A stretch of DNA of 33,523 bases from a virus. The notes under the pieces were generated by a model. That model searched no databases, had not been told where the DNA came from, and saw only the letters and a program-made list of their open reading frames with translations. Positions 1,286 through 32,060 of the stretch are shown here, in pieces (the stretch's first letter is position 1; each line of letters starts with the position of its first letter). The DNA lies in IMG/VR virus record IMGVR_UViG_3300042554_001522, positions 1 through 33,523 of that record; one strand, written 5' to 3'. The translations under genes were made by a program, and so were the position numbers.

Positions 1286-2599
1286 TTATTCAAACAAACA
1301 AGGTGGATTTTTTAATAAATTATCCAAATCCACATTTAATGATTTAAGAGATTCTATTTTATTATTTTTTTCGTTTATTTCAATTCTAAATGGTGCTGAT
1401 TCATAGACGCCAATATCAGTATTTGATATTACTTGATGGATATTTCTCAATAGATTGATAGATTCATTCAAATTATTTTCTAGATCAGAATATTTACAAT
1501 ACAAAATTATATCGTTTGAGAAGGTTGCATCGGTAGTATATCGTATTCTATTATCAAAATCTACTCTGTTGAATTTTTCCATAACACTATTCCAATGAGA
1601 TTTGGTATACTTCAATCTTAAATTGCTAAAATAATCGTGATTAAATTCAATTGATTTTTTTAAGTAGTCTGATACCATTTCGTCATTTAAGTATAAGTTT
1701 GAAACAAATGGTTCTATATTCATAAGAACATTAACATCAGCATACTTGTCTAAATCAATCAAAATACCAATATCATAAAAATAACTAACATCATGCCCAA
1801 ACTTTCCCCATTTACGAATGAATCTAAGTAACTCTTGATAATCAGCTCTACTTTGTAATTCATTTTTTATTTTAACCGAAGTGTCATTTTCCTTAAACCA
1901 ATCCTTGCCCCTAGATGAAATACAAGTAAAATGATAAACTGCGGTTTTCCAAGACTGTTGTAAGTTTATATCATTTAATTTACATCTAATGATAAAATCT
2001 GAATCCTCTCTTGAACATCTAAATTGTGTATCAAACCCTTTCATCTTTTCAAACCAAAGCTTTTTGTTCAAAGCAAAAGGTGCAAAATGTGCACCATCAA
2101 CTAATGGTCTATCTTCTTTTTGTAATTTTTCAACAAAGTTATCAAAAGATTTCATATTAAACAGTAAAGCATCTATGCCAAAATCCATCACTATTTTTTC
2201 AGGAGAAGGAGGATGTAATGGTGGTTCAATTCTAGTGAAAGACAATATAGTATTATCATCCTCCAAATCGTTTAATATCCATTTGTCTAAATCTTTACCA
2301 ACTACCATATCAGATTGAAGATAACATACAATATCATTTTTAGCAGCATCAAACATTATAGAAACATTTCTTTGACTACCAAATGGAAAACCTGTTTCGT
2401 TTCGATATATCTTCATGTTTGGAAATGCTTTTTTCTTTTCTATTAAACTTTCATATGTATTTTGATTATCAGAATCTATGAAAATTAATATCTCATGGTT
2501 TTCAATCTGAGTATTTCTTCTCAATGATTCTAATAATAATAAAGTGTAATCCTTTTCATTATTTGCAGTTGGTATGCAAAAAGTTATTGGTTTAATCAT
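1286..2599 (-). CDS. Family 2 glycosyltransferase with long C-terminal extension
   Basis: A 437-residue GT-A fold protein. The N-terminus (PITFCIPTANNEKDY) is the usual GT2 first strand. FIDSDNQ is at about 40-46, the metal/nucleotide-binding DXD equivalent is SDM at 96-98, and the acidic REDSD motif at 197-201 is where the catalytic base normally lies. About 200 further residues follow with no recognisable domain. It should transfer a sugar from a nucleotide donor; donor and acceptor are unknown. The ATG overlaps the upstream SDR gene by 8 nt, and it is the last gene of the glycan operon, followed by a new promoter-like box. The gene looks clearly AT-rich. Confidence 0.8.
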   Translation of the reverse strand: MIKPITFCIPTANNEKDYTLLLLESLRRNTQIENHEILIFIDSDNQNTYESLIEKKKAFPNMKIYRNETGFPFGSQRNVSIMFDAAKNDIVCYLQSDMVVGKDLDKWILNDLEDDNTILSFTRIEPPLHPPSPEKIVMDFGIDALLFNMKSFDNFVEKLQKEDRPLVDGAHFAPFALNKKLWFEKMKGFDTQFRCSREDSDFIIRCKLNDINLQQSWKTAVYHFTCISSRGKDWFKENDTSVKIKNELQSRADYQELLRFIRKWGKFGHDVSYFYDIGILIDLDKYADVNVLMNIEPFVSNLYLNDEMVSDYLKKSIEFNHDYFSNLRLKYTKSHWNSVMEKFNRVDFDNRIRYTTDATFSNDIILYCKYSDLENNLNESINLLRNIHQVISNTDIGVYESAPFRIEINEKNNKIESLKSLNVDLDNLLKNPPCLFE

Positions 2600-3437
2600 A
2601 TTGATTCCTTATACTATTGTATATTATTTTTATTGATTTCTGCAATCCTATAAAGTTTATTCCAATGTCAAAATAAGTTCCGATATAATCACTGTCTTTT
2701 GAATTTATTGTATTAACCGGGATATCATTCATTGATACTATTTCAACTTTATTATCGTCTAATTCATTTATCATGTTGAGTATATCTTTTAATCTAAAAG
2801 ATTTTTCATAGACACAATCTATTGTTTTTGGAAAACGTGTGTAATCTATTAAAAATTGATTTATCATTTTTGCTAAATCATCTATGTAAAAGAAATCCAT
2901 CAATTTATTTGAAAATAATGTCATTGGTAATCCATTTAATTTTCTCTCTATATTACCACGAATCAATCTATCTGGACTTTCATCAATCCCAAAACAATTA
3001 AATATTCTGAAATTATACATCTTATCTTCTATTAAACATAACTTGTTTATTACACTTTTTGACATACCATAGTAATCTATTGGGTATCTATCTTTTGAAT
3101 CACCGTTTATATCAAACCTTCTATCTAATTCTGCACCAGAACCAAATGTTATTATTTTATCAAAACAATGTTTATTTGATAAAAGATTATATGTCATCAA
3201 AATGTTTTTGTAAAACATTTCTTCCGTATCTGGTTTAGTTCTTCTCCCACCCTCAACGGCAGTATGTATTACTAAATCATATTGCTTATCTGAAAAGAAT
3301 TTTTTTGTAGATTCGTAATCTGTTAAATCTAAATCTTGTCTAGAAACAGTTTCTACTTTATATTGGTTCGATAAAATTTTTGATAGATTTCTTGCAATAA
3401 ATCCATTGCCGCCTGTTATTAAAATTTTAATACTCAT
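2592..3437 (-). CDS. Extended SDR, NAD-dependent epimerase/dehydratase family
   Basis: A 281-residue Rossmann protein. The dinucleotide-binding TGGNGFIA is at about 8-15, a catalytic-type Ser in FGSGAE at about 100, and YGMSK supplies the Tyr123/Lys127 pair. Overall it resembles NDP-sugar epimerases/reductases such as the GDP-fucose synthase or RmlD group. It is on the short side, which is more common for reductases than for 4,6-dehydratases. It overlaps the kinase-like gene as ATGA and the GT2 gene downstream. It probably performs a redox or epimerisation step on the sugar built by the cassette; the exact reaction is inference. Confidence 0.8.
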   Translation of the reverse strand: MSIKILITGGNGFIARNLSKILSNQYKVETVSRQDLDLTDYESTKKFFSDKQYDLVIHTAVEGGRRTKPDTEEMFYKNILMTYNLLSNKHCFDKIITFGSGAELDRRFDINGDSKDRYPIDYYGMSKSVINKLCLIEDKMYNFRIFNCFGIDESPDRLIRGNIERKLNGLPMTLFSNKLMDFFYIDDLAKMINQFLIDYTRFPKTIDCVYEKSFRLKDILNMINELDDNKVEIVSMNDIPVNTINSKDSDYIGTYFDIGINFIGLQKSIKIIYNSIRNQYD

Positions 3438-4384
3438 AAAAACTCATTAATATATTTAACCATTCCGATGTGTGTATTCTCAACAATATTTTTATCAACT
3501 TCTATTATTTTGTTAGGATATATTTCTAAAAAATATTCCGAAACAATCGGAATTTTTTTTGGTATTCCACCTGTTAATATAATTCTTCTTACTTTATTTT
3601 CGTCTATGAAATCAATATATTGATTTACATATGATTTGAAAACAGAAGACAATAAATTTTTAAATGTAAAATTACTTTCAGTTATTCCAGATATACTACC
3701 ACCCGATTTATACAAGTGTGCCTCTGGAAAATTATTCAAATTTATGTCCATAGAAGAATCGATAATATCACTTATGGTTAAAGATTTTGCAAAATCAAAA
3801 AAATCAATTCCTAAATCCTTAAAGAAATTTGAAAAAACATTTAATGATCTACCACTTGGTATAAAAGAATTTATAGACCGTTTTGTAATAACTTGAGATC
3901 CAGTTCCCATGTTTATTAAAACATCGTTGTCATCTAATTCAACAGACTTTATTACACATTGAGTATCACCTAAAGGACTATAAACCGGTATATCGTTTAG
4001 ATTTCCAATTACCCTAATATCGCTGATATATTCATTTGTATTAATATATTTTGCATGATGTTCGTGTACATGGAATGTATCTTCTTGAATAAACAAACCA
4101 CCAATCATACAAGATGATGATATTCCTTTTTTATTTGATTTCCAAGTATGATAAATATTTTCATCATAAAATCCACCAAGAATAGAACAAATAATTATAG
4201 CATCTATACCGATGTGGATATTTAATATTTCAAAAAGTATTTTTTTTAACTCATTTTTTGATATAGAGTTTACTTCTGAAAACGGAGATATTAAATTATT
4301 TGGATTGGTATATTCTTTTGTAATTCTGTTATATTCAACCGTTTTTATGAATGATGCACCAAAATCAATTAACAAATATCGCAT
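3434..4384 (-). CDS. Compact FGGY/sedoheptulokinase-like carbohydrate kinase
   Basis: A 316-residue protein of the ASKHA (actin-like ATPase/sugar kinase) fold. The phosphate-1 loop DFGASFIK is at 7-14. LGDTQ with the presumed catalytic Asp is at about 140, NMGTGSQV (phosphate 2) at 158-165, and the adenosine-site TGG at 271-273. The GDxQ and xGTGSQV stretches look most like the sedoheptulokinase side of the FGGY family. FGGY kinases are usually 450-550 residues with the Asp near 240-260, so the first domain is shortened by about 100 residues. Next to a sugar-phosphate cyclase it could phosphorylate a ketose or cyclitol. ROK-type or other ASKHA kinases are the alternative. It overlaps the cyclase gene by 20 nt. 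Confidence 0.65.
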   Translation of the reverse strand: MRYLLIDFGASFIKTVEYNRITKEYTNPNNLISPFSEVNSISKNELKKILFEILNIHIGIDAIIICSILGGFYDENIYHTWKSNKKGISSSCMIGGLFIQEDTFHVHEHHAKYINTNEYISDIRVIGNLNDIPVYSPLGDTQCVIKSVELDDNDVLINMGTGSQVITKRSINSFIPSGRSLNVFSNFFKDLGIDFFDFAKSLTISDIIDSSMDINLNNFPEAHLYKSGGSISGITESNFTFKNLLSSVFKSYVNQYIDFIDENKVRRIILTGGIPKKIPIVSEYFLEIYPNKIIEVDKNIVENTHIGMVKYINEFL

Positions 4385-5387
4385 TTACTCTTTCCATTAA
4401 ATTGTCATCTATTTCTGTTTCGGTGAATATTGTTTTTCCCGGTTCAACAACACGAATTAATGTTATAGAATTATTTGTAGATTTTTTATCAGTTCTTAAT
4501 CTATTAACAATCTCATTGATGTTCAAACTCTTTATTTTATCAATAGAAGTAAACCTCGATATTAATTTTGATATATCATCGTTATTATCGAATAATTTAT
4601 TCATTATCTCTATACCGATTAAAACTGCCTCACCGTGTGGAATTTCATAATCTGTCATTGGTTCTATCACATGACCGAATGAATGTCCGTAATTTAAAGA
4701 CTTTCTTTCTGACTTTTCAAATTCATCCATTTCTATTATTGATTTTTTTATAGAAAGCGAGTGATAAATTAATTCTTCCTCATTTATACTATCAATCATA
4801 TTGACATAGTATTCTCCACCTATTAAAAATAATTTTATTATTTCACCATATCCAGAAACAATATCTTTTTGTGATAGAGTTTTTAAAAAATTAATATCGA
4901 TAATAACCTCTTTCGGTGCAGAAAAAAGTGCAAGTTGATTCTTCTGTGAATTGAAATTTAATGCAGTTTTACCGCCTATACAACTATCACATTGTGAAAG
5001 CAATGTAGTTGGATAGAATACCCAATCTATCCCTCTTTTAAAAATTTTAGAAACAAATGCACCTATGTCTTGTAATATACCACCACCAATTACCACCAAT
5101 CTATTGCCTTTGTTAAAATTTATTGATAATAATTCTTGACAAATATTTAGAACAGTATCTATCGATTTGTTTTCTTCTAATGCATCGATTGATATTAACT
5201 TATCATGGTATATTCCATATAATTTACAAACGTTTGAATCTACCAACACCACGTCTAATGCATCGAATTTATTTTCAAAAGACTTAAATGAAACTAAATA
5301 ATCTTCTGGATGAGAATTTACATTAAAAGATTTTTTAAAATTTTCATCTACATTAAATTCTGTTTCGTTTATACTGAATGTTTTCAT
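4365..5387 (-). CDS. 3-dehydroquinate-synthase-type sugar phosphate cyclase
   Basis: A 340-residue member of the DHQ synthase superfamily. Visible in order: GGG at 101-103 (NAD binding), RGI at 118, PTTLLSQCDS at 126-135, GGKT at 138-141, GYGEIIK at 179-185, and NYGHSFGHVIE at 232-242. IPHGEAV follows at 249-255 and DKKS near the end. The metal ligands Glu182, His235 and His251, and the DHQS-like Arg228, Asn232 and His239, are all present. An NAD-dependent carbocycle-forming reaction is therefore likely. Being beside a kinase, a NeuB-type synthase and a TPP enzyme rather than shikimate genes, it probably acts on a special sugar phosphate. A DHQS, valiolone-type or amino-DHQS activity cannot be separated by eye. 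GGAA lies eight bases before ATG 5387. Confidence 0.8.
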   Translation of the reverse strand: MKTFSINETEFNVDENFKKSFNVNSHPEDYLVSFKSFENKFDALDVVLVDSNVCKLYGIYHDKLISIDALEENKSIDTVLNICQELLSINFNKGNRLVVIGGGILQDIGAFVSKIFKRGIDWVFYPTTLLSQCDSCIGGKTALNFNSQKNQLALFSAPKEVIIDINFLKTLSQKDIVSGYGEIIKLFLIGGEYYVNMIDSINEEELIYHSLSIKKSIIEMDEFEKSERKSLNYGHSFGHVIEPMTDYEIPHGEAVLIGIEIMNKLFDNNDDISKLISRFTSIDKIKSLNINEIVNRLRTDKKSTNNSITLIRVVEPGKTIFTETEIDDNLMERVNAIFVN

Positions 5388-5389
5388 AT

Positions 5390-6019
5390 TTAAATTCCAA
5401 TTAAACTATAACCACCATCTACTATAATATTTTGTCCTGTTATTGATTTATTTTCCAACAAAAGATATGAACAAATTTTTGCTATTTCTTTTGCATCAGT
5501 TAAACCAAGTGGAATATTTCTTTCCAATTCATTTATTCTTTCAAATGAATTGTTCTTTCTTGTCAATTTTGTATCTACAAATCCAGGTGATACCATGTTT
5601 ACTGCACATTTTTTTTCAGACATTTCTATTGCAAGAGTTTTTACTGCACCATATAATCCATGTTTAGAAATTGTGTAAGCAAGTCTTCCGGTTTTTGTCT
5701 CAGATGCATATAATGATCCGATTGCAATTATATTACTATTTGAATTGAAATTTATTTTTTTACACAATCTAATAAAACTAATCGTATTTACATTAATTAT
5801 ATTTATTAAATCATTATCAGAAGTATCTGTATAAGAATTTATTTTATTTATACCGGCACAATGTACCAAACCGCTTACATCATTAACATCCAATTCAAAA
5901 TCTTCTGAAAAATCTATTATATCAGAATTTAATTCTATTAATTCTATTGATTTGGATTTTAGATATTTAGATATTTCAGATCCTATTCCACCAGAACTTC
6001 CTGTTACTACTATCTTCAT
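5390..6019 (-). CDS. Classical short-chain dehydrogenase/reductase
   Basis: A 209-residue classical SDR. The cofactor loop TGSSGGIG is at 6-13, CAG at 54-56 stands for the usual NAG, and the catalytic Ser102, Tyr115 and Lys119 lie in GS and YTISK. PGFVDT follows, and the C-terminal VDGGY is typical. It should reduce a ketone or oxidise an alcohol on a sugar or cyclitol intermediate. I chose ATG 6019 because GGAG lies eight bases upstream and the start overlaps the TPP gene stop as TGATG; a TTG one codon earlier is possible. Between the TPP enzyme and the cyclase, it may reduce the product of either. Confidence 0.85.
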   Translation of the reverse strand: MKIVVTGSSGGIGSEISKYLKSKSIELIELNSDIIDFSEDFELDVNDVSGLVHCAGINKINSYTDTSDNDLINIINVNTISFIRLCKKINFNSNSNIIAIGSLYASETKTGRLAYTISKHGLYGAVKTLAIEMSEKKCAVNMVSPGFVDTKLTRKNNSFERINELERNIPLGLTDAKEIAKICSYLLLENKSITGQNIIVDGGYSLIGI

Positions 6020-7755
6020 CAAAATGTCTCCGATATAAACATATCCATGAGTGTTCCTGGAATAATTTTTCCATTTTCATCTAAGCCCTTATGTGTAACC
6101 TTTGGCTCATGTCTTTCTTTTGGATGAGTAAATACTTCAAGAATACATGAGTTTTCTTGTTTAATAAACCAGTCTAACATATCATCTATTTCCGCATTTG
6201 TTTTTATAGAATTGTATGGTATACCAAATGCATGTGAAATTGATTTGAAGTTTGGAATTGTTACACCATTATCTTTACCACTTGCAAATTCTTTACCATC
6301 AAAGAAAGATTCTTGTGTTAATTTTATAGAAAGATAACCGTCATTATTTACTATTATGGTTTTAACCGGTAGTTTATACCCAACTATTGTTTGTAGTTCT
6401 TGAATATTCATCATAATACTACCATCGCCTTCTATACATATCACCTGTTTTTTGTTGTTAGCAATACAAGCACCAATTGCAGCCGGTAATCCATATCCCA
6501 TACTGGCACATCCAACATTTGTAAATAATTTTTGATCCTTATTTATTTTGTAGTTTTGTAGTGTAACAACATGAGCGGTTCCATTACTTGTAACTATTGG
6601 CGTTTTATCAAATACATCAGAACATTTACTTATGAAATAATAAAAACTGGCATAATCTTTTAACTCCATATGTTTTTTATGATAATATTTCTGATCAATT
6701 CTTAATTTTTTCACATAATCTTGCCACTCATATATGCAATCTTTATACTGAATATTTTTTATGTCTTCAAAAAAAGTATTTAAATCTATGTTAAGTTTTA
6801 AATCTATTTTAAACTTATGTTTTGATATTTCATTATTATCTATATCAACCATTATTTTTTTTGAATTTGGTGAAAATTCATTTATATTATATCCAGTCAT
6901 TTTAACGGGCAATCTTGTACCTAGACAAATCAAAAGGTCAGAATTTTGAACTATTGTGTTTGATGATAACTGACCAAGTATTCCTATACGACCGGCGTAA
7001 TAATCATACGTATTGTCTACTGCATCAATACCTGAATGTGGACCGGTAACAACTGGTATACCGGTTTTATTTAAAAAATCATTAAGTTGTTCGTTAGTTC
7101 TAGATAAATTTATACCATTTCCAACAATTACCAATGGTCTTTTTGACTCATTAATCATTTCTGTGAATTTTTTTATATCTTCTTTGTTAATAGAAACATC
7201 GATTTTTTCATCCTTATATCTTTCACATCCATCCAAATTAATATCTGCACCTTGTATGTCTAATGGTATATCTATCCAAACAGGACCAGGTCTTCCGCTA
7301 TTTGAAATTTTATAGGCCTTTTCCAATTCATAATATATTTTATTAGGATCGGTTATCATTACAGAATATTTTGTCATATTCTTAACCGTTGATATAATAT
7401 CAAATTCTTGATCTCCAATCTGTCTACAACCAGTTCCATATGATATTTGGTTAATTGGGACTTGTCCGGAAATAATAATTGAAGGTATACTGTCTAACCA
7501 GAGCCCTAATAGTCCAGTCAATGCATTTGTTCCACCAGGTCCGGTTGTTACAATACTAGCACACATTTTACCATTCATGCGGGTATACCCCTCAGCTGCC
7601 ATAAGTGCACTCTGTTCATGGTGTGGGCAAAATACATCCATATCTGATTTACGTAGAGAATCTATAAGATGTATACACCCGCCACCGGAAATTGTAAATG
7701 TTGTGTCTATTCCATTATCCAATAAAAATTTTATTACAAAATCGGAAACTTTCAT
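6019..7755 (-). CDS. Thiamine-diphosphate enzyme of the acetolactate-synthase family
   Basis: A 578-residue protein with full three-domain ThDP architecture. The cofactor-activating Glu47 is in HHEQSALMAAEGY, TTGPGGTN at 70-77, and the GRPGPVWIDIP stretch closes the first domain. The Mg/ThDP motif GDGSIMMNIQEL starts at 443 and ends in VNNDGY. It lacks a companion regulatory subunit. Family members include acetolactate synthase, IolD and YerE, which attaches a two-carbon unit from pyruvate to a keto-sugar. In this context a carboligase making a branched or chain-extended sugar is the most attractive reading, but the acyl donor and acceptor are inferred. The start overlaps the NeuB-like stop as TAATG. 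Confidence 0.85.
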   Translation of the reverse strand: MKVSDFVIKFLLDNGIDTTFTISGGGCIHLIDSLRKSDMDVFCPHHEQSALMAAEGYTRMNGKMCASIVTTGPGGTNALTGLLGLWLDSIPSIIISGQVPINQISYGTGCRQIGDQEFDIISTVKNMTKYSVMITDPNKIYYELEKAYKISNSGRPGPVWIDIPLDIQGADINLDGCERYKDEKIDVSINKEDIKKFTEMINESKRPLVIVGNGINLSRTNEQLNDFLNKTGIPVVTGPHSGIDAVDNTYDYYAGRIGILGQLSSNTIVQNSDLLICLGTRLPVKMTGYNINEFSPNSKKIMVDIDNNEISKHKFKIDLKLNIDLNTFFEDIKNIQYKDCIYEWQDYVKKLRIDQKYYHKKHMELKDYASFYYFISKCSDVFDKTPIVTSNGTAHVVTLQNYKINKDQKLFTNVGCASMGYGLPAAIGACIANNKKQVICIEGDGSIMMNIQELQTIVGYKLPVKTIIVNNDGYLSIKLTQESFFDGKEFASGKDNGVTIPNFKSISHAFGIPYNSIKTNAEIDDMLDWFIKQENSCILEVFTHPKERHEPKVTHKGLDENGKIIPGTLMDMFISETF

Positions 7756-8831
7756 TATTTTATATTATCCCTCAATAGTGGTTGATCTTTTTTAATATCA
7801 CAAATTAATATGGAATCATTTTCAATAAAATCTCTAGATGAAATATGTCCGATTTCTTTTTGATATGGGATTGCACTATACAAATCTTCAATTTTAACAA
7901 CTTCACCGGATTTCATATCTCTTTTCAAATACAATCCTCTGTAAAGTGATTCCAAGTAAATAGATTCTTTTTCGTCAATAACTCTACGAATATCTGATGA
8001 TGTTCCACACATAACCAAAGCTTTGTTATATGCCTTAAACCATTCATCTATTTGATGTGGCAATGAGCAATACTTTGAAACCTCTGTTTGTTCATGATCT
8101 TTTGGATATGGGATGTCAATATGTCTTTCCCATGTTCTGGCTCCTTTAGCATAAGATATTAACATTGAGGAATGCCAATCGTGATATTCGTGTGTTGATA
8201 ATCCTATAACCAAGTTAGGATATTTTTTTTTCAAATAATCAATCTGATTGAGCTCCAATTCATCATCTTCGCTTGGATATTTTGAAACACAATGATTTAT
8301 TGATATTGGTATGTTTCTATGAACAAAGAAAGAAACCACATCGTCTATTTGTTTGTCATTGGCACCACCAGTAGAAATTATTACCGGTTTTTTTGTTGAT
8401 GCTATTTTATTAAGAAGAACCCAATCGTTTATATCAGAACTTGCAATTTTTATTATAGGTAAATCTAACTCAACACAAAAGTCTACTGACTTTTCATCAA
8501 AAGGTGTTGCCATTGGAATACAATCGTGTTTCTTTATGTATTCTATTAACTCTCTAAATTCATCATAAGTTAATTTAGTCTTTGATGTTTTCTGTATGTA
8601 TCTACTTCTTTTTTTCAAATTCGTTAGATTTTCACCACAACCTTCATCTTTAAAATTTTTATGTATAAAATTATCAACGTCTCTGAATTGTAATTTTATA
8701 GAAGCCTTGACTTTATTTTCCTTTACAACCTTTGCAAATTCTCGTATAATCTTTTTACCTCTTTCGATAGAACCCCAGTGGTTATTTGCCAATTCTAAAA
8801 CGAATAGATTTTCAAAAATGTTTTTATCCAT
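7755..8831 (-). CDS. NeuB/SpsE-type sialic-acid-synthase-like enzyme with SAF domain
   Basis: A 358-residue protein. The N-terminal TIM barrel begins LELANNHWG (about 12-20), the variant of the NeuB AEIGxNHNG start that keeps the key Asn-His. Barrel features follow: IKLQFRD, ATPFDEKSVDF, IKIASSD, ISTGG and GLSTHEYHD. The last about 70 residues fit the antifreeze-like SAF domain (LYRGLYLKRDMKSGEVV...). NeuB enzymes condense phosphoenolpyruvate with an aldose to give a 3-deoxy-2-ulosonic acid. The variant N-terminus suggests a sub-clade with a different aldose. I prefer ATG 8831, with GGAG nine bases upstream, over the in-frame TTG at 8858 that overlaps the previous stop. It heads the NeuB-TPP-SDR-cyclase-kinase-SDR cassette. 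Confidence 0.85.
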   Translation of the reverse strand: MDKNIFENLFVLELANNHWGSIERGKKIIREFAKVVKENKVKASIKLQFRDVDNFIHKNFKDEGCGENLTNLKKRSRYIQKTSKTKLTYDEFRELIEYIKKHDCIPMATPFDEKSVDFCVELDLPIIKIASSDINDWVLLNKIASTKKPVIISTGGANDKQIDDVVSFFVHRNIPISINHCVSKYPSEDDELELNQIDYLKKKYPNLVIGLSTHEYHDWHSSMLISYAKGARTWERHIDIPYPKDHEQTEVSKYCSLPHQIDEWFKAYNKALVMCGTSSDIRRVIDEKESIYLESLYRGLYLKRDMKSGEVVKIEDLYSAIPYQKEIGHISSRDFIENDSILICDIKKDQPLLRDNIK

Positions 8832-8854: not shown

Positions 8855-9382
8855 TCAAATCTTCTCTGCAAATAAAGCCTTCATTGGTCTAGCATGAATC
8901 AAATCTATGCTTGCAATTATATCATATCCTAAATTTGTAAATTTTTCCACAAACTTTTTGTATAAATCATCGGAATGAGTTTCTAATGCGTAGTGCCGTA
9001 TTGAAGAAAATTCTTCATCTGTAAGTTCTAGTAGTACATATTCAAACCCTTCTATATCACATTTAATCATTTCCGGTTTATATTCATTAATGATATTTCT
9101 AATATCATTCACACTAGAAACATTTAGTGTGAATGCAGAAATATTAGAGTCTTTACAAATATTTTCATTATACCAATTTATTTCATTTTCATCCAAATCA
9201 AATGCATAGACTTTTTTAGCACCATTTTGGATTAACCACTCTGGAGTGGTTGGCCAATTAGGATCACGATATTCCACACTTTCCCATCTACCACAACCCA
9301 AATCTAAACACACTCTATCTTTACATTTAACAAATTCCCAATGTAAATTAGGATTTTCAGAATCAGTTTCTTTTAATATCAT
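8855..9382 (-). CDS. FkbM-like SAM-dependent methyltransferase
   Basis: A 175-residue class I methyltransferase. The SAM-binding LDLGCGR is at 26-32, the acidic ribose-binding strand FDLDE at 61-65, and KCDIEGFEYVLL at 108-118 is the hallmark of the FkbM group. FkbM proteins usually O-methylate sugars or related hydroxyls, which fits this neighbourhood. I chose ATG 9382 because GGAG lies six bases upstream; an upstream TTG at 9394 is in frame. The 3' end abuts the NeuB-like gene (a 4-nt overlap if that gene used its TTG). The target hydroxyl is unknown. Confidence 0.75.
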   Translation of the reverse strand: MILKETDSENPNLHWEFVKCKDRVCLDLGCGRWESVEYRDPNWPTTPEWLIQNGAKKVYAFDLDENEINWYNENICKDSNISAFTLNVSSVNDIRNIINEYKPEMIKCDIEGFEYVLLELTDEEFSSIRHYALETHSDDLYKKFVEKFTNLGYDIIASIDLIHARPMKALFAEKI

Positions 9383-9403
9383 TTTTTTCTCCAATTAAAA
9401 ATA

Positions 9404-10357
9404 TTACCATATAAATTTGTTTCTATAAAAATTAACAATTTCAACTATTTCTGTTTCAAAATCTTTTGACGTTTTCCAACCTAAAGATTTTAATTTTGAA
9501 TCATCTAAAGCATATCTTACGTCTTGTCCAGGTCTTCCTATTGAAAAATCTATATGTTCGTAAATATCTTCATAATTTTCATCATACAATTTAATAATTT
9601 TTCCAACAACTTCCAAATTATTTTTTTCAATACCACCACATATATTGTATATTTCGTTTTTTACATCAGATTCTATTATAGTAATTATTGCAGTTGCAGT
9701 ATCATATGCGTGTAACCAATTTCTAATCGGAGTTCCATTATTGTGCAAAGGTATTTTTCTACCAACTTTCAAATATTTACATGATTTAGGTATGAGTTTT
9801 TCCACATATTGTCCAATACCATAATTGTTGGTTGGTCTTACTATTACATAAGAAATTCCATATGTTCTTGACCATGCCTGTATTAACATATCAGCGGCTG
9901 CCTTTGTTGCAGAGTATGGATTTGATGGTTTCAATAAATCTGTTTCAGTATGGACACCATTTGATATATCACCATAAACTTCATCTGTACTAAAATGTAA
10001 TAATACAGGAGTCTTATTGTTTTCCTGTCTGTAATTTCTAAGTAATTCTAATATACGATGTACACCGTTTATATTGGAGTGAACAAAGTCATCACTTCTG
10101 ACAATGGAATTTCCAACATGAGTTTCAGCTGCGGTATTTATTATGTAATCACAATCGTATAAAAATTCTAAATCATTTATGTCACAATGTGTAAATACAA
10201 AATTATCATATTGTTCAAATTCTTTTAACAAATCTTTGTTAGCAGCATAGGTTATCTTATCAATACCACGAACATACCAACCTTTTTTTAGACATTCACG
10301 AGTAACATAAGAACCAATAAATCCAAGGCATCCGGTCACATATACTATTTTTTTCAT
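9404..10357 (-). CDS. NDP-glucose 4,6-dehydratase-type extended SDR (RmlB-like)
   Basis: A 317-residue extended SDR. The NAD loop TGCLGFIG is at 8-15, STDEVYGD at 123-130 supplies the Thr-Asp-Glu dehydratase triad, and YSATK at 148-152 supplies Tyr and Lys. RPTNNYGIGQ and the C-terminal GRPGQDVRYALD are RmlB hallmarks. The reaction is expected to be NDP-hexose to NDP-4-keto-6-deoxyhexose. It is slightly shorter than bacterial RmlB (about 340-360). The nucleotide (dTDP, CDP, GDP or UDP) cannot be assigned. It would supply the 4-keto sugar needed by the RfbH-like protein and perhaps by the TPP enzyme of the same operon. Confidence 0.85.
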   Translation of the reverse strand: MKKIVYVTGCLGFIGSYVTRECLKKGWYVRGIDKITYAANKDLLKEFEQYDNFVFTHCDINDLEFLYDCDYIINTAAETHVGNSIVRSDDFVHSNINGVHRILELLRNYRQENNKTPVLLHFSTDEVYGDISNGVHTETDLLKPSNPYSATKAAADMLIQAWSRTYGISYVIVRPTNNYGIGQYVEKLIPKSCKYLKVGRKIPLHNNGTPIRNWLHAYDTATAIITIIESDVKNEIYNICGGIEKNNLEVVGKIIKLYDENYEDIYEHIDFSIGRPGQDVRYALDDSKLKSLGWKTSKDFETEIVEIVNFYRNKFIW

Positions 10358-12216: not shown

Positions 12217-13374
12217 TTATGACCTGGTAGATAAATACTCTTTTATTTTATCACAAACATAATCCACATCATCAACTGTCATTCCGTGGTGTGCACCTAA
12301 AAGAAATCCGTCTTTCATTATGGTATCTGCATTTTCAAACGTTTCCAAGTATTCTCTATAAACAGGATGTCTTGTAATGTTTCCGGCAAATGTAACACGA
12401 GTTTGAATATCGCTATCTTCTAAATAAGTTAGTAGACCCAATCTATCCGAATATTGAAGTGGGATTGCGAGCCAATTGGGTTTGATACTATCATCTGGAA
12501 GAGTTATCTCTGAAACATCTTTTAGATTTTCAATGTACCTTTCGATATTTTTTCTTCTTATATCAACAAACCTATCCAACTTTTCCATTTGAACCAAACC
12601 AAATGCCGCATTCATTTCAGATGATTTGAAGTTGTAACCAAGAACACCATATAAAAATTTGAAATCGTATGGTATTCCATCAACTTGATGATTGAATCTT
12701 TGATCGACTTCTTCCGCATTATTTCCAATTCTACCCCAATCTCTAAATTGCAAACAAACATCACGTAAAGATTCATTGTTGAACATTACCATCCCACCAG
12801 AGCCACCAGCGGTAATTACATGGGAAGCATAAAACGATGTAGTTGAAATGTCAGTTTCTTCGGTGTATGTCATTGTATCTGCAGAATCTTCAATCAATAC
12901 AATATCATTTCGATCAATAGAAATTAAATGTTCACGTATTGATTTCCAATCTGGTTTATTTCCTATCAAATTTGGAATCATAATAACTTTTGTTTCACTT
13001 GTTATCTTTTCTGCAATCTGTTCAAGCGATGGAACATACGTTGTTAAACCAACATCACAGAAAATTGGTTTCAGTCCCAACTGAACCATTGGTGCAACCG
13101 TTGTAGAAAATGTACAAGCGGGTGTAATTACTTCACTTCCTTTTGGAAGTTTAAGTGATGAAAGTGCAAGTAAGCAAGCGGATGAACCAGAGTTTACAAA
13201 TACGCCAAACTTTTTTCCAAAATACTTAGCAACAATATTTTCAAATTCTACTGAGCGAGGACCGAATCCGGCAATCCAACCGTCACGAAGACATTGTTCA
13301 ACTGCTTTGATTTCTTCTTCGCCATATGATTCAAATTTGTTGGGGGCATACCAAACTTTTTTTCTACTTTCCAT
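12217..13374 (-). CDS. RfbH/ColD-type PLP sugar 3-dehydratase homolog lacking Fe-S cysteines
   Basis: A 385-residue fold-type I PLP protein of the DegT/DnrJ/EryC1 superfamily. NSGSSACLLAL (61-71) and IEDSADT (161-167, PLP-ring Asp163) are standard. At the Schiff-base site, SFYASHVITAGGSGG has His185 where aminotransferases have Lys. That substitution defines the 3-dehydratases RfbH/E1 and ColD. Further matches to RfbH are RDWGR (211-215), the YGVLGYNFKSSEMNAA region and FAGNITRHP. The four cysteines after RDWGR that hold the [2Fe-2S] cluster in E1 are missing (IGNNAEEVDQRF instead). It may therefore dehydrate by a ColD-like PMP mechanism. A product with a 3-deoxy keto-sugar skeleton is expected but unproven. 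Confidence 0.8.
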   Translation of the reverse strand: MESRKKVWYAPNKFESYGEEEIKAVEQCLRDGWIAGFGPRSVEFENIVAKYFGKKFGVFVNSGSSACLLALSSLKLPKGSEVITPACTFSTTVAPMVQLGLKPIFCDVGLTTYVPSLEQIAEKITSETKVIMIPNLIGNKPDWKSIREHLISIDRNDIVLIEDSADTMTYTEETDISTTSFYASHVITAGGSGGMVMFNNESLRDVCLQFRDWGRIGNNAEEVDQRFNHQVDGIPYDFKFLYGVLGYNFKSSEMNAAFGLVQMEKLDRFVDIRRKNIERYIENLKDVSEITLPDDSIKPNWLAIPLQYSDRLGLLTYLEDSDIQTRVTFAGNITRHPVYREYLETFENADTIMKDGFLLGAHHGMTVDDVDYVCDKIKEYLSTRS

Positions 13375-13385
13375 GTTACTACCTA

Positions 13386-14009
13386 TTATATTTTTTCATA
13401 AAATTTATTTTGTTTTTCTTGTTTAAGTATATCTTTGTGATGATAGATGCAAAATGATTCATCAGGTGGAAGATTTGAATATTTATCATATCCGGTTAAT
13501 CTTTCATGTACCTTATTTTTCCAAACTATTAAATCATTATTTTTGTATATCCTTGTCTGATAATCTGGCCAATTTACTCTATTGTTTTCATCATACACCC
13601 AATCCCATTTTTTTATATGTTCATCGGTGATTCCATCTACCGTATTCCATCTTGGAACCAATATCATTTCTAGATTATCATTTGAATTTAATATATCATG
13701 TATATTGTCCATTAGTATTTTTGATGGCAATTCATCTGCATCTATATTGAATATCCATTTATTTTTACAATATTTTTTTAAATTATTCTTGAAACTTGAA
13801 AAATCTTTTTTCAATGGAAATTCTATAACATTAAAGTTTTTTATAGTATCTCGGTGTGAGTCTATAACACTTCTAACGGCAGGTGTAACGGCCATCGTGT
13901 CCATTTGAACTACTATTTCATCTTCATCCTTTATATTTTTAGTTAAAAATGACAATAAGCTATCCAACTCTTTATCTTCATTACAAACTGTTATGGTATA
14001 GGAAATCAT
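13386..14009 (-). CDS. Family 2 glycosyltransferase
   Basis: A 207-residue GT-A protein. The N-terminal strand ISYTITVCNED is followed by a typical acidic loop, and FNIDADE at 88-93 contains the DXD that binds metal and nucleotide-sugar. After this come PRWNTVDGI, NWPDYQTRIY and KVHERLTGYD. These resemble short GT2 enzymes of the SunS/WaaE-like type that are frequent in phages. It is single-domain without membrane segments, so it should act in the cytoplasm. It lies 11 bases before the RfbH-like gene and 4 after a GT4 gene. Donor and acceptor are unknown. Confidence 0.8.
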   Translation of the reverse strand: MISYTITVCNEDKELDSLLSFLTKNIKDEDEIVVQMDTMAVTPAVRSVIDSHRDTIKNFNVIEFPLKKDFSSFKNNLKKYCKNKWIFNIDADELPSKILMDNIHDILNSNDNLEMILVPRWNTVDGITDEHIKKWDWVYDENNRVNWPDYQTRIYKNNDLIVWKNKVHERLTGYDKYSNLPPDESFCIYHHKDILKQEKQNKFYEKI

Positions 14010-14013
14010 AAAA

Positions 14014-15303
14014 TTATACCTCTATTTTTTTAAGTGTTGGTAAATTCAAAGAAACCTTCTCAGAAAATTTTGGCAATCTTTCTTCTAACAATTTTTTAAA
14101 ATTATCAACCATTGTGGAATATGACCACTTTTTATGAAAATATTTTAGTGATGCAGTTGAGCTTCTTAAATGTTGATTATAGTTTTGTTTTATAGAATCC
14201 ATTTTTTTAGCAGCGTTCTGATAGTCTACCGTAAACCAATTTGTTCCGGAGTTTATTATCCCCTCCCAAACTGCACTCGGATGAACTTCTTTGACATCAC
14301 CTTTCAAAAGTATATGAAATTTTTCATCAACAAAATCGGTTTGACCACTCCAACCGGAAACAACAACTGGCTTTCCTGTTGTAATAAATTCTGCAATTGG
14401 TCTGCCATAACCTTCACCTTTTGTAAAAGAAACAAATGCCTTTACTTTAGGATGATTGTATAATGTATTCATCTGTTCATCTGTCAAATCACCGTGTAGC
14501 AAATAAACAGGAGGCAGAACTTTTTTCTTTGACATACTCTTTATTAAATTTATTTTTTCAATTATTCTAGACCTGTCTGATATTGAAAATGTTCCACCAG
14601 AAGATTTTAATATCAATGCAGGTTGATTTGGTGCATCACCAAATGTTTCAAAAAATGTGTACAATAATCCAGATACATCTTTTCTATCTTGTCCAAAATC
14701 TCCTTTCATCCAATGACCAACGAATAAAAATGCAAAATCGTTTTTCATTTCATTCAACAAACTAACAACATCGGGATCCAGTTCGGCATCTTTGTTAAAT
14801 ATTTCTTCTCTGAATCCCTCGTGTAGAATTTCAACAGGAACTTGTAGCTCCACAACACCGATAACTTGGTGTGTATTTTTATCTCTCTTTTCAAATCTAC
14901 TATTTTCAAAAACTTTTTTAGAATGTTTGGATGGAACTATAACCAAATTCATTCGATTACATCCTTCTATCCAACCTGCATCACAAATATCAGTTTCAAT
15001 GCCTGCAGTGATTCCAATGTTATATTTTCCAACGTTTTGAAATTCATTAGGGATAGTGCACTGCATCCAAATATCCGGTTGTTCTGTGAGTTGTCCCACT
15101 AAAATTCTATCTAATATTTTCTTGTCCAGCTCATTATATGGATTTAAGGCATTCATAGGCGTTTCACCCCAATTTATTGACATTATTTTAATATCAAACA
15201 TATCCATATCTATTAGTGAATGAACTAAATCACGTGCATGAGATCCATATCCACTCATTGTTGCAACTGGTCCACAAAAAACTAATTTCGGTCTATAACT
15301 CAT
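14014..15303 (-). CDS. Family 4-type (GT-B) glycosyltransferase
   Basis: A 429-residue two-domain GT-B protein. The N-terminal half begins KLVFCGPVATMSGYGSHAR, the Gly-rich acceptor-domain loop. The C-terminal half carries FLFVGHW, then the donor-site motif KGEGYGRPIAEF at 295-306 with the EX7E pair Glu297/Glu305. Conserved GKPVVVSGWSGQTDFV follows. It is the expected length for GT4. It has no membrane segment or signal peptide. It lies nine bases after another GT4 gene and directly before a GT2 gene, in the promoter-proximal part of the glycan operon. Confidence 0.85.
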   Translation of the reverse strand: MSYRPKLVFCGPVATMSGYGSHARDLVHSLIDMDMFDIKIMSINWGETPMNALNPYNELDKKILDRILVGQLTEQPDIWMQCTIPNEFQNVGKYNIGITAGIETDICDAGWIEGCNRMNLVIVPSKHSKKVFENSRFEKRDKNTHQVIGVVELQVPVEILHEGFREEIFNKDAELDPDVVSLLNEMKNDFAFLFVGHWMKGDFGQDRKDVSGLLYTFFETFGDAPNQPALILKSSGGTFSISDRSRIIEKINLIKSMSKKKVLPPVYLLHGDLTDEQMNTLYNHPKVKAFVSFTKGEGYGRPIAEFITTGKPVVVSGWSGQTDFVDEKFHILLKGDVKEVHPSAVWEGIINSGTNWFTVDYQNAAKKMDSIKQNYNQHLRSSTASLKYFHKKWSYSTMVDNFKKLLEERLPKFSEKVSLNLPTLKKIEV

Positions 15304-15312
15304 ATGAAATCC

Positions 15313-16749
15313 TTATACTAAATGTAAACTAAATTTTGTTCTTGGGGTAAAATTCTCTAATGTATCTTTTATACTTTTTGATACTCTATCTGCCATTAAA
15401 GTTCTTGTCATTCCAACTTCTGAATTTGATATGAACTCTCTACCTTTTAATCCAGAAGACTTTCTTTCTTCTTTTGGAGTATTATACCATTCATACAATG
15501 CATTCCCAATATCTCTGAAATCAGCACGGTCATCAAAAATATATGGAGTTGGTACTGATCCTTGAACTGATATGTTAGATGGCCATACGGGTTTAACCCA
15601 TTCACCGTGTTTCAAATCACCCCAAACATCTTTTCTGTGCAGTGTATGGATTTTTATGTAATCGTCCTCTGTGAAATATTTGTTTGTTTCTGGATTAATA
15701 AAACCACATTGGTCTTGTAAACCACCAGTAACATTTACTACAATTGGTGTTCCCGCAGAGATTGCCTCAGCTGTTCCTAAACCAAATCCCTCATTCGATG
15801 CCATATTAATAACAACATCTGCACAGTTATACAAAACATTCAGTTTACTAGAAGGAACAATTTTATCGTCAAATAAAACATTATATTCGTTACATAATTC
15901 ACCAACTAGTGAAACCAGGTCTGTTCCGTTATGGTCAATTGGTTGAGTGTGCATAAGTAGAATACAATCTTGAGATGCATTTCCTCCATTTTCATCAATA
16001 AGCTGACACATATGTTTATATGCAAGCACTACATCTCCCGGATGTTTACGGTGTATATTTCTATTGTTCCACATAACAACAAATTTATTTTCATTTTCAC
16101 CGCGTATTCTTTTGCTTTCTTCTTGTAATTCATTCCAATCGTCTTCTCGTTCAGACTTTACAGGTTCTATTGGAAAAAACATATTTGTATCAATTCCATG
16201 TGGAACATAAGTTATTCGATGATTTGGAATTTCTTCACCGAATCTTTTTAGTATTCTGTGATTTATACCATATGTTTGTTTTGATATTGCCATCAGCAAA
16301 TCACAACTTGCATATGCCTCTTTATTCCACATGGGATCAGTTGCAGTTTCACCAACCAATCCTGCACCATCCCATATATTCAAATATAACAAAGGAATCT
16401 TTGTTCGTATTTCATGTTCCATATTATAGAGCCATCCCCAAAATCTTGGATCCGTGAAGTGTAAAATTGCATCGGGCTTTTCTTGTTCCATGAGTCTGCG
16501 AATCATCATGGAATCCCCATAACTATTGTAACAATATATTTTAACAGATGCGTCTTCAACTCCAGTCATGTTTTTTGCATCTTCCGATAAATCAAATATC
16601 TTTCCATTATCTGGATGATTTATTGCAGCACCTAATTGAATCCAATCGAAATCCTTTACAGATCCTATAACCATATCGCGAGATACAGTTGCAATTCCAG
16701 ATGTTAGTCTCAAATCATCAGACAGTAATAATATCTTTTTCTTTGCCAT
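15313..16749 (-). CDS. Family 4-type (GT-B) glycosyltransferase
   Basis: A 478-residue GT-B protein, a distant relative of its neighbour. The start KKILLLSDDLRLTSGIATVSRD is the acceptor-domain loop. VMWNNRNIHRKHPGDVV opens the donor domain, and NEGFGLGTAEAISAGTPIV near residue 320 has the EX7E pair and phosphate-binding region. The C-terminal 130 residues extend beyond the core. AAAGG lies six bases before ATG 16749. It should use a retaining mechanism with a nucleotide-sugar donor. Two adjacent GT4 enzymes suggest consecutive sugar additions. Confidence 0.85.
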   Translation of the reverse strand: MAKKKILLLSDDLRLTSGIATVSRDMVIGSVKDFDWIQLGAAINHPDNGKIFDLSEDAKNMTGVEDASVKIYCYNSYGDSMMIRRLMEQEKPDAILHFTDPRFWGWLYNMEHEIRTKIPLLYLNIWDGAGLVGETATDPMWNKEAYASCDLLMAISKQTYGINHRILKRFGEEIPNHRITYVPHGIDTNMFFPIEPVKSEREDDWNELQEESKRIRGENENKFVVMWNNRNIHRKHPGDVVLAYKHMCQLIDENGGNASQDCILLMHTQPIDHNGTDLVSLVGELCNEYNVLFDDKIVPSSKLNVLYNCADVVINMASNEGFGLGTAEAISAGTPIVVNVTGGLQDQCGFINPETNKYFTEDDYIKIHTLHRKDVWGDLKHGEWVKPVWPSNISVQGSVPTPYIFDDRADFRDIGNALYEWYNTPKEERKSSGLKGREFISNSEVGMTRTLMADRVSKSIKDTLENFTPRTKFSLHLV

Positions 16750-16758
16750 GTGAAACCT

Positions 16759-18144
16759 TTATATGTTAAAAAACTTTTGTGTTGTAGTTGTTGAAACACC
16801 GTTCATGTTAATAATCATTTTACGGTATGGTTTGAATCTGTAACCCATCTGTTCTAATGAATAATTAAACCAATCTTCTGAGTAATCATCTTTATTCCTT
16901 TTGCCTCTTGAAATTATTGTTTGCATATCAAGAACAAAGTTATCAAGTTTATTCATATCTCTTGTTAATCGTATCAATCTTAATCTTCGTCTGTTATATT
17001 CTTCTTCATCTTGTTCTAATCTTTGAATATCTAATATAAGACTTTTTAATGAATTTTCCAAATCATTTATATCATAAGATAAAACTAATTCAGAAAATTC
17101 TGTTCCCTCGAACAAATCAATATATGTTTTATCGTAAATTGGAATTGTCATCAAGTTCTTTTCTATTTGTGCATATTCAAATCTTGGTGTAATAAACATT
17201 CCAAAGAAAGGCACTTTTGTATTGGTTGTTGATATACTGAATCTGCAACCGGTTAAAAAGTCCATCATACTTTCCATCGTATATGTTCCAGCAAGTATCA
17301 TCGGTTTATCGTTATCGAAAACTTTGAATACAGTTGGATCCAAATCATAGTCTGGTAGGAATGTATCACTAAAAGTTTTACGAGAAACATTTGCGTGTTC
17401 TGCCAATATCTTTACATGATTGAAATAATTTTCAGGTGAGTATGTGTTTCCAATGTGAACCAATTTCTTACCAGACATATCTTTCAATCCCATCTTATCC
17501 ATTGTTTCTACGATTGGTTTGAAGTTACCATGACCTTTGAATTTTGCATAGTAAGCACATTCTGAAATGTATGGTAATTCTTTTTTATCTAACCATGATT
17601 TTTCAATCCACTTGTCATAGATACTCATGTCAATATAACCACCGACTTGAAAAGTATAGTTGGAAGTTCCTCTCATTCCGATATATTCTTTCAATGCATC
17701 TACAAAGAATGGAGTGTATGTCAAGTAGTAATCACTATACTTTATGAATGCCGGAACACAAATAGTATTGAAGTGCATGCCTTCATACGGATATATCTCA
17801 TGGTCAAAGAATGCAGTTATAGTATTCAACTGACAATACATCTTTGCCAATTCAATCAGTCTTTCTCTATGTTCTGGTTTTCTTTTTTGAATACCATCAA
17901 CATCGTAGATAAATTTGTTGAGGTTCAAAACAACAATATCATAACCTTCCAACTTATCTTTCAATTCAATTATTTCCATTTCGGAAATATCCACACAGTT
18001 CTGATATTCAGATTTGAAATTGTTTGTTTCACTTGGGTTAAAATAAAAAGTATCAACACTATCAAGTGATGATATATTTTTAGTGAATGTATGTATGCCC
18101 CTATAAACTGATAGGTCAATGATTGCTAATTGAGCTATTTTCAC
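16759..18144 (-). CDS. Putative GT-B-like protein, first enzyme gene of the glycan operon
   Basis: A 461-residue soluble protein. I do not recognise a family signature, but the alternating strands (IVVLNLN, ITAFFDHE, KLVHIGNTYSPENY) suggest a two-Rossmann GT-B arrangement. The middle part with MILAGTYTMESMMDFLTGC resembles the donor half of a glycosyltransferase. A strongly charged, probably coiled-coil stretch (DEEEYNRRRLRLIRL) lies at about 370-400. It starts at GTG 18144, which overlaps the stop of the ribbon-helix-helix gene as GTGA. The leader GGTGTTTCGTG is shared with the methyltransferase gene at 29497. Distant relation to phage DNA glucosyltransferases is possible but not shown. Confidence 0.5.
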   Translation of the reverse strand: MKIAQLAIIDLSVYRGIHTFTKNISSLDSVDTFYFNPSETNNFKSEYQNCVDISEMEIIELKDKLEGYDIVVLNLNKFIYDVDGIQKRKPEHRERLIELAKMYCQLNTITAFFDHEIYPYEGMHFNTICVPAFIKYSDYYLTYTPFFVDALKEYIGMRGTSNYTFQVGGYIDMSIYDKWIEKSWLDKKELPYISECAYYAKFKGHGNFKPIVETMDKMGLKDMSGKKLVHIGNTYSPENYFNHVKILAEHANVSRKTFSDTFLPDYDLDPTVFKVFDNDKPMILAGTYTMESMMDFLTGCRFSISTTNTKVPFFGMFITPRFEYAQIEKNLMTIPIYDKTYIDLFEGTEFSELVLSYDINDLENSLKSLILDIQRLEQDEEEYNRRRLRLIRLTRDMNKLDNFVLDMQTIISRGKRNKDDYSEDWFNYSLEQMGYRFKPYRKMIINMNGVSTTTTQKFFNI

Positions 18145-23348: not shown

Positions 23349-23349
23349 A

Positions 23350-31310: not shown

Positions 31311-32060
31311 TTATCCTCCTACATTCCAAAATAAAGCATCATCAGATGCCCGTTCCTTAATAAATGACCAAACTTTTGAATCGTAATAATCCGAAGATGC
31401 AAACGGTGGTTTCTCTGCGGGTTTACATTTTTGTGCGAATTTATATTTCGATATGAAAATTTCTGCCCTACCTTTTTCTCTATCGGTAGTATTGTGTCCA
31501 ACTCTAACACCATATACTTTTGCATCTGGCCATGCCTTCTGCAAACCTCTTGAAAGAACACCTGAACTTATACATGACCAAACTTCTTTTGGTTGTATAG
31601 GAAGTGAACTTGCAATTCTAGCAACTTCATCTATAACAACAGGATGGTCAAGCCCAAACGGTAGTAATTGTGTACCAGGCGTTTCTACTGCATACTTTTT
31701 AGCAACGTGTTGAATGTGTGTGAGAAATCCCATAGGAACTTCTATAATGTTTGCACCAATAGAAATTGCTTCTTCGGTTAAAGGTAGATGTTTTCCTTTC
31801 GGAATGATAACTGTTGCCTTCAATCCCAAGTCTCTACAAACATAAGCAAGTGCAACTTGAGCATAGCCAACTCTCGGTGAAGCATAAACCCATTCCCTTA
31901 CATGAGATTGCGATTGTAGATAACGATATAAAAATCTTCTTTTTGTTCCACCAGGAAGTAAGTCATCACGTACTACCCAAATGTTTTCATGTCTTTCAAT
32001 GACAACATCAGGTAAAGTTATTGTGACATCTTTCGTATTATATTGAAAGAAGTCTGACAT
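31311..32060 (-). CDS. Compact fold-type II PLP-dependent enzyme
   Basis: A 249-residue protein of the tryptophan-synthase-beta/ACC-deaminase superfamily. DDLLPGGTKRRFLYRYL places the probable PLP lysine at Lys40. VIIPKG near 84-89 and the SSGVLSRG loop at 165-172 stand where the phosphate-binding Gly loop normally lies. It is clearly shorter than usual members (about 300-400). Superfamily enzymes do deamination, beta-replacement or elimination on amino acids. Phage enzymes of this kind are known in thymidine hypermodification, but no such substrate can be claimed here. AAGGTG lies before ATG 32060; it lies between the thioredoxin and dUTPase genes in one operon. Confidence 0.7.
   Translation of the reverse strand: MSDFFQYNTKDVTITLPDVVIERHENIWVVRDDLLPGGTKRRFLYRYLQSQSHVREWVYASPRVGYAQVALAYVCRDLGLKATVIIPKGKHLPLTEEAISIGANIIEVPMGFLTHIQHVAKKYAVETPGTQLLPFGLDHPVVIDEVARIASSLPIQPKEVWSCISSGVLSRGLQKAWPDAKVYGVRVGHNTTDREKGRAEIFISKYKFAQKCKPAEKPPFASSDYYDSKVWSFIKERASDDALFWNVGG

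Follow-up and report, generated by a model that had tools for sequence, protein, structure and literature searches.

The fragment analysed here, positions 1 to 33,523 of IMG/VR virus record IMGVR_UViG_3300042554_001522, is called the window below; it carries a family B polymerase that matches phage PHROGs. According to the list of open reading frames (ORFs), its minus strand holds six intact and colinear genes at 2592-8831 (Table 1). In 5′ to 3′ order these encode a NeuB/SpsE-family synthase (NeuB), a carboligase dependent on thiamine diphosphate (ThDP; the enzyme is called TPP here), a compact classical short-chain dehydrogenase/reductase (SDRc), a homologue of 3-dehydroquinate (DHQ) synthase (Cyc), a compact FGGY-fold kinase (Kin) and an extended SDR (SDRe). 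The product class that we describe for this cassette, a branched higher-carbon sugar, is well supported. A sequence-only reading had listed six coupled, phage-borne genes of named families and had proposed a carbocyclic or higher-carbon sugar pathway. ORFs and Pfam agree with the families listed, AlphaFold and Foldseek bear out the kinase, and it is the higher-carbon sugar that finds support.

The six-gene cassette and its recurrence

Adjacent cassette genes overlap by 1 base (NeuB/TPP), 4 bases (TPP/SDRc), 20 bases (Cyc/Kin) and 4 bases (Kin/SDRe), and a gap of 2 bases separates SDRc from Cyc. The six genes are thus real, but the six-gene unit of the sequence-only reading is drawn too narrowly: coupling extends into a glycosyltransferase gene at one end and a methyltransferase-like gene at the other, and functionally related genes for a 4,6-dehydratase and an RfbH-like protein lie further out. 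The NeuB protein has its NeuB domain, with the catalytic-site histidines H223 and H246 invariant in the homologue alignment, and scores below the equivalog cut-offs for sialic acid synthase (134 vs 340 bits) and pseudaminic acid synthase (125 vs 400 bits).

A neighbourhood search of other genomes found the gene set in many of them. Scanning viral contigs with the TPP protein gave 35 viral loci, about 20 of which repeat the window's six genes in unchanged order; a wider scan, after removal of near-identical TPP sequences, gave 153 loci (86 viral, 67 bacterial). NeuB, TPP, SDRc, Cyc and Kin occur together in 19 non-redundant viral loci (the window included; 18 also have SDRe) and in 6 bacterial loci, and bacterial versions of the set sit in O-antigen-type loci. 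The 20-base Cyc/Kin overlap is retained in nearly all loci measured. With the set recurring in so many non-redundant viral loci and the overlap kept, chance is excluded. Some queries were uninformative: a viral-contig scan with the single Cyc protein gave no matches, whereas TPP and profile queries did find loci, and a Cyc profile found nothing in an Actinomycetota sample at E 1e-65, a misleading result, since mycobacterial Cyc appeared only when the genus Mycobacterium was searched. No relevant paper came out of a literature search on cassettes of the YerE-like or NeuB/acetolactate-synthase kind in phages.

Table 1. Cassette genes and neighbouring genes of the window, with the basis of each assignment (PLP, pyridoxal phosphate; NDP, nucleoside diphosphate; PDB, Protein Data Bank)
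Feature	Position	Strand	Basis and remarks
NeuB/SpsE-family synthase (NeuB)	7755..8831	-	ATG start, TTG at 8858 possible; PF03102 7.7e-42
YerE-like ThDP-dependent carboligase (TPP)	6019..7755	-	TPP_enzyme_N/M/C; JanthE 8RPH is best PDB relative; tree
Compact classical SDR (SDRc)	5390..6022	-	TTG start; adh_short_C2 1.3e-32
DHQ-synthase homologue (Cyc), TIGR04425-like	4365..5387	-	DHQ_synthase 9.2e-33 and DHQS_C
Compact FGGY-fold kinase (Kin)	3434..4384	-	AlphaFold and Foldseek; motifs
Extended SDR (SDRe)	2592..3437	-	Epimerase 3.1e-24
RmlB-like NDP-glucose 4,6-dehydratase	9404..10357	-	TIGR01181 305 bits, cut-off 365 not reached; adjoins cassette in phages, conserved
RfbH/ColD-like sugar 3-dehydrase	12217..13374	-	DegT family 1.7e-75; RfbH 267 bits, below cut-off; PLP Lys replaced by His
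Small methyltransferase-like protein, possible tailoring	8855..9394	-	Weak FtsJ match below cut-off; adjoins NeuB in several phages
GT2 glycosyltransferase overlapping SDRe	1286..2599	-	PF00535 1.9e-9
Presumed glycosyltransferase genes (GT2b, GT4a, GT4b, 461-aa protein)	13386..18144	-	ORFs; homologues in relatives

The predicted coupling enzyme, its acceptor and exchangeable donor modules

Among solved proteins the TPP profile scores highest against 8RPH (614 bits), followed by an acetolactate synthase (417 bits), and the single TPP protein gives 354 bits for 8RPH vs 264 for the next. Entry 8RPH is JanthE, a YerE-like enzyme (PMC12188165), which falls inside the ingroup of a TPP tree rooted with one acetohydroxyacid synthase outgroup. 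The catalytic glutamate E47 and the ThDP motif GDG...NN (D444, G445, N470, N471) are invariant. Judged by sequence, the window enzyme is YerE-like, which the sequence-only reading (acetolactate-synthase-type) had missed, and it needs a free 2-keto acid as donor. Enzymes of this group transfer the acyl unit of a 2-keto acid to a 4-ketosugar, in the case of YerE to cytidine diphosphate (CDP)-3,6-dideoxy-4-ketoglucose; ErwE and Mycobacterium marinum MMAR_2332 favour longer, hydroxylated 2-keto acids, and pyruvate is used by some YerE-like enzymes (PMC12247030).

One bacterial locus (L041) holds cassette genes together with glucose-1-phosphate cytidylyltransferase (RfbF), CDP-glucose 4,6-dehydratase (RfbG) and RfbH, all passing equivalog cut-offs, and these three families recur across the bacterial loci. 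Given this company, TPP is expected to place a chain drawn from a 2-keto acid on C4 of an NDP-3,6-dideoxy-4-ketohexose. The flanking dehydratase and RfbH-like genes, which the sequence-only reading had passed over as a source of the acceptor, would take the parts of RfbG and RfbH in the window. At the position of the PLP lysine the RfbH-like protein has histidine, a 3-dehydrase trait, as do 56/57 viral and 45/45 bacterial homologues. It lacks the Fe-S cysteines and is ColD-like in that respect; these cysteines are also missing in about 17 of the 57 viral homologues, and nearly all bacterial ones retain them.

The donor side varies between phages. Beside TPP and SDRe, sister phages carry in place of NeuB, Cyc and Kin one of the following: DmpF with DmpG (acetaldehyde dehydrogenase and 4-hydroxy-2-oxovalerate aldolase, cut-offs passed), PanB (ketopantoate hydroxymethyltransferase), an HMGL-like protein, NeuB by itself, or an aldolase of the HpcH/HpaI type that may or may not come with SDRc-Cyc. 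Known members of these families form 2-keto acids. The TPP phylogeny tracks module type, requiring 23 changes vs a mean of 70 in shuffled data (0/200 shuffles as low), as expected if carboligase and donor evolve together. From the exchange of modules and the TPP tree we assign NeuB, Kin, Cyc and SDRc to the making of the donor; 51 non-redundant bacterial loci also have NeuB beside TPP and lack Cyc. It is very probable that the cassette makes a long-branched sugar of the YerE type and that NeuB belongs to the donor side. In three phage loci (L255, L263 and L267) a ketopantoate hydroxymethyltransferase-like gene directly follows the YerE-like gene (PF02548, 323 bits in L263), a pair that suggests a pantoyl-type branch.

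The DHQ-synthase homologue, its partners and their mycobacterial counterparts

The best model for Cyc is TIGR04425 (296 bits for the window, 312 and 292 in bacteria; cut-off 400 not passed), ahead of the aroB model (231 bits; cut-off 305 not passed), and the nearest curated name, of the TIGR04425 type, is the AroB-related 'phospholyase (cyclizing)'. The phylogenetic placement proposed earlier put it outside AroB: in the tree, cassette cyclases form a group apart from the AroB rows with 95/92 support. Nine cassette-bearing bacterial genomes were searched; their cassette copies score 285-372 bits, and a second AroB-like gene, at 178-218 bits, is present in 7/9, none being found in G006 and G008, both apparently incomplete genomes. 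Against solved relatives the Cyc profile gives 211 bits for DHQ synthase (DHQS) vs 124 for 2-deoxy-scyllo-inosose synthase (DOIS) and 123 for 4P53, of the 2-epi-5-epi-valiolone synthase (EEVS) type.

The window Cyc keeps every DHQS catalytic, metal-ligand and ligand residue compared, including the equivalents of K250, R264, N268 and K356; the one DOIS reference, the sugar phosphate cyclase in the residue alignment, has other residues at R264, N268 and K356. The roles of these residues in DHQS are established knowledge. As the carboxylate-binding residues are kept, the substrate of Cyc is probably a carboxylated phosphate resembling 3-deoxy-D-arabino-heptulosonate 7-phosphate (DAHP), and its step then probably comes before TPP decarboxylates the acid. 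If a ring were closed on this acid, the 2-keto group that TPP needs would be consumed, which favours a reading without a ring.

No Pfam match was obtained for the window Kin, FGGY_N included, and longer homologues in L025 and L096 pass FGGY_N. Its AlphaFold model (mean predicted local distance difference test score, pLDDT, 92.9) led Foldseek to FGGY kinases such as glycerol kinase and xylulokinase (TMq mostly 0.57-0.73), and the motifs DFGA, GD and GTGSQ are conserved. Most viral copies have 305-335 amino acids (aa) and bacterial ones, like those of a few phages, 397-445 aa, so that this is a trimmed FGGY kinase. Among loci with Cyc, Kin occurs in 27/30 with NeuB vs 0/21 without (Fisher p 1.8e-11, kinship of loci being ignored). 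Bacterial NeuB family enzymes usually give unphosphorylated products; the kinase would thus supply the phosphate leaving group. SDRc, in which Y116, K120, S103 and N79 are invariant, was detected in 50/51 TPP loci that have Cyc and almost only there, and most donor types seen in phage TPP loci come with SDRe. Each predicted ketone thereby has a reductase, consistent with two ketones and no ring.

The same SDR-cyclase-kinase module, also missed by the sequence-only reading, is found in a mycobacterial locus that matches the caryophyllose locus of M. marinum. Eight genomes of the genus Mycobacterium hold Cyc, with 82-100% identity to the copy in G1323. In G1325 the gene order is Kin-Cyc-SDRc-aldolase-TPP-glycosyltransferase-RfbF-RfbH-RfbG; mmar_2318, 2319, 2320 and 2323 are matched in order and size (PMC4703794) by an ORF of 909 nt, an ORF that can be read as 1638 nt, a gene of the DegT family and one for a large transmembrane-like protein, and a large polyketide synthase (PKS) gene stands where pks5, mmar_2340 (PMC12395582), is expected. 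Counting back from the PKS, the YerE-like gene would be 2332, as published, the glycosyltransferase 2333, the aldolase 2331, SDRc 2330, Cyc 2329 and the kinase 2328. G1323 itself had been considered as the M. marinum locus and was dropped, its expected wecE neighbourhood being missing. M. marinum mutants of MMAR_2331, 2332 and 2333 stop before caryophyllose, which is 3,6-dideoxy-4-C-(D-altro-1,3,4,5-tetrahydroxyhexyl)-D-xylo-hexose (PMC5706390). This structure has no carbocycle; it has a CH2 beside C1′, as left by a 3-deoxy-2-keto acid, and its branch ends in CH3. A 3,7-dideoxyheptulosonate donor accounts for its carbon count and deoxy positions.

Phage cassette and mycobacterial locus (lipooligosaccharide LOS-II, to which MMAR_2331-2333 are experimentally tied) therefore share, in the matching genome, a YerE-like TPP, a DHQS homologue, a classical SDR, an FGGY-type kinase and the RfbF/G/H context. 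They differ in that Mycobacterium has an HpcH/HpaI-type aldolase where the phage has NeuB, a full-length instead of a compact kinase, and no SDRe found beside these genes; on the phage side the dehydratase resembles RmlB and the dehydrase has no Fe-S cysteines. The yersiniose A pathway (YerE, YerF, RfbF/G/H, E3) shares the TPP enzyme family and the acceptor logic, but draws a C2 branch from pyruvate and has no NeuB, cyclase or kinase. The erwiniose pathway of Pectobacterium atrosepticum has a YerE-like enzyme, ErwE, acting on 4-hydroxy-2-oxo acids, such as DmpF/DmpG of sister phages would make; its donor module differs from that of the window, and we know of no cyclase or kinase in it. The gastriose branch ends in CH2OH, which would fit five mycobacterial loci (L278-L282) where NeuB is followed by a cupin-like stretch, a YerE-like TPP gene and a haloacid dehalogenase (HAD) phosphatase gene, with no Cyc; these are possible gastriose-type clusters. 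The gastriose enzyme MygE of Mycobacterium gastri is likewise YerE-like and accepts C3-C8 2-keto acids in vitro (PMC12247030).

Proposed pathway, alternatives and implications

In the reading that we consider fairly probable, the product is an activated higher-carbon sugar with a 4-C branch, similar in kind to caryophyllose and meant for a surface or virion glycan that the phage directs; it would arise by the following steps. The RmlB-like and RfbH/ColD-like enzymes would make the NDP-3,6-dideoxy-4-ketohexose acceptor. From phosphoenolpyruvate (PEP) and an aldose, for which a tetrose is the likeliest candidate, NeuB would form a 3-deoxy-hept-2-ulosonic acid by condensation, and Kin would phosphorylate the terminal hydroxyl of this acid. 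Cyc would then act as a redox phosphate lyase, oxidising C5, eliminating the C7 phosphate and re-reducing C5; the resulting enol would ketonise with the ring left open, giving a 3,7-dideoxy-2,6-diulosonate, and SDRc would reduce the C6 ketone to give 3,7-dideoxyheptulosonate. TPP would decarboxylate this donor and join the resulting acyl anion to the acceptor at C4, after which SDRe would reduce the ketone at C1′ of the new branch. The part of this scheme in which a non-cyclising lyase brings about C7 deoxygenation is given an even or slightly better chance. A more general proposal is that this DHQ-synthase homologue stops after the first half of the DHQS reaction and makes up, together with kinase and SDR, a transplantable module that deoxygenates 2-keto-acid donors at C7 and is common to phages, mycobacteria and bacteria of sea and gut; here the balance is about even.

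Several observations weigh against the scheme. The enol intermediate of DHQ synthase closes to dehydroquinate even without the enzyme, so that a non-cyclising homologue must actively prevent closure, and the full DHQS residue set would be equally expected of a true cyclase. SDRc-Cyc pairs are not tied to branched sugars: in L184, L186 and L187 they stand away from TPP genes, adjoining a SIS-domain protein and an oxidoreductase, with cytidylyltransferase-like genes in two of the loci, which may be a second use of the pair. NeuB and Cyc occur with the kinase undetected in L204-L206, and several mycobacteria combine aldolase, Cyc and kinase, which weakens a rule that the kinase comes only with NeuB. 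We recognised no NDP-sugar pyrophosphorylase in the 33.5-kb fragment and found no SDRe homologue beside the cassette genes in G1325, whose identity as M. marinum we infer from ORF lengths and order.

The branched-sugar pathway could hold with Cyc closing a ring after all, on the coupled product, giving a caryose- or bradyrhizose-like carbocyclic higher sugar, or on an acid attached later. The kept catalytic residues and the 'cyclizing' of the curated name are in keeping with this, and bicyclic bacterial sugars exist, the genes for bradyrhizose being unknown in 2016 (PMC4743980). DHQ-type closure, however, uses up the 2-keto group required by TPP, the carboxylate-binding residues imply action ahead of decarboxylation, closure after coupling would deprive the retained SDRe of its ketone, and the mycobacterial home of the module matches a locus whose product has no carbocycle; we regard ring closure as unlikely, and the carbocyclic end product of the sequence-only reading is not supported. 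Its parallel with the first shikimate steps (DAHP synthase, AroB) fares better, in that a PEP-aldose condensation feeds a DHQS-type enzyme with all checked residues kept, including the carboxylate binders missing in the DOIS reference; the cassette departs from shikimate in its NeuB-type synthase and kinase, its lineage outside AroB and, probably, the absence of ring closure. That the phage just supplies an AroB in the form of Cyc, as fold family and residues would allow, is extremely improbable given the second, lower-scoring AroB-like gene in seven of the nine cassette-bearing bacterial genomes searched, the separate grouping of cassette cyclases and their constant place within a sugar operon.

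A cyclitol pathway, in which EEVS-like chemistry starts from sedoheptulose 7-phosphate and the kinase acts on heptulose or cyclitol, had been suggested because an FGGY kinase stands beside a DHQS-fold cyclase; the GmhA-like SIS-domain protein next to the related SDRc-Cyc pair in L184, L186 and L187 would also fit. The DHQS-like profile score and the kept R264, N268 and K356 speak against it, and it leaves NeuB and TPP unexplained; the cassette is probably not a cyclitol pathway, and this version of one is very unlikely. The genes might also serve two products, with NeuB-Kin-Cyc-SDRc making a quinate-like acid, TPP-SDRe making simple yersiniose from pyruvate, and co-location being mere convenience. 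SDRc-Cyc pairs do exist without TPP genes and some YerE-like enzymes take pyruvate (PMC12247030), but NeuB adjoins TPP where Cyc is absent, other 2-keto-acid-forming enzymes replace it beside the same TPP family, and the TPP phylogeny tracks the module, so that we hold this division quite improbable.

The glycosyltransferases presumed at 13386-18144 are likely the users of the branched sugar. In relatives, homologues of these genes flank the donor module that is exchanged; homologues are also present, some annotated as glycosyltransferases, in Microcystis phage Mel-JY01, whose family B polymerase is 62% identical to that of the window, the closest among the deposited phages searched. In Mel-JY01 these related genes lie downstream of the replication genes, and the 42.5 kb of it that were examined contain no cassette gene. 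Elsewhere in the window, three proteins (22284-23396, 23350-24972 and 28271-29497) share a TSPPYF...(D/E)ETQS-like motif, the last with a sub-threshold N6_N4_Mtase match, and look like paralogous DNA methylase-like proteins; a PLP-dependent PALP-family protein (31311-32060) barely exceeds the Pfam cut-off.

In the literature searched, which names the coupling enzyme, we found no account of how the branch donor of long-branched sugars is synthesised, though one may be proposed in Steitz 2019, 2022 and Krug 2024 (cited in PMC12247030). Such sugars, which are rare and include caryophyllose, are known chemically, and the cassette yields a gene-by-gene proposal for the donor. It indicates that phages carry long-branched-sugar pathways with exchangeable donor modules. 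If the proposal is true, it would be an unusual use of the DHQ-synthase fold, testable with purified enzymes, and the cassette enzymes are a possible source of biocatalysts for tertiary-alcohol synthesis.

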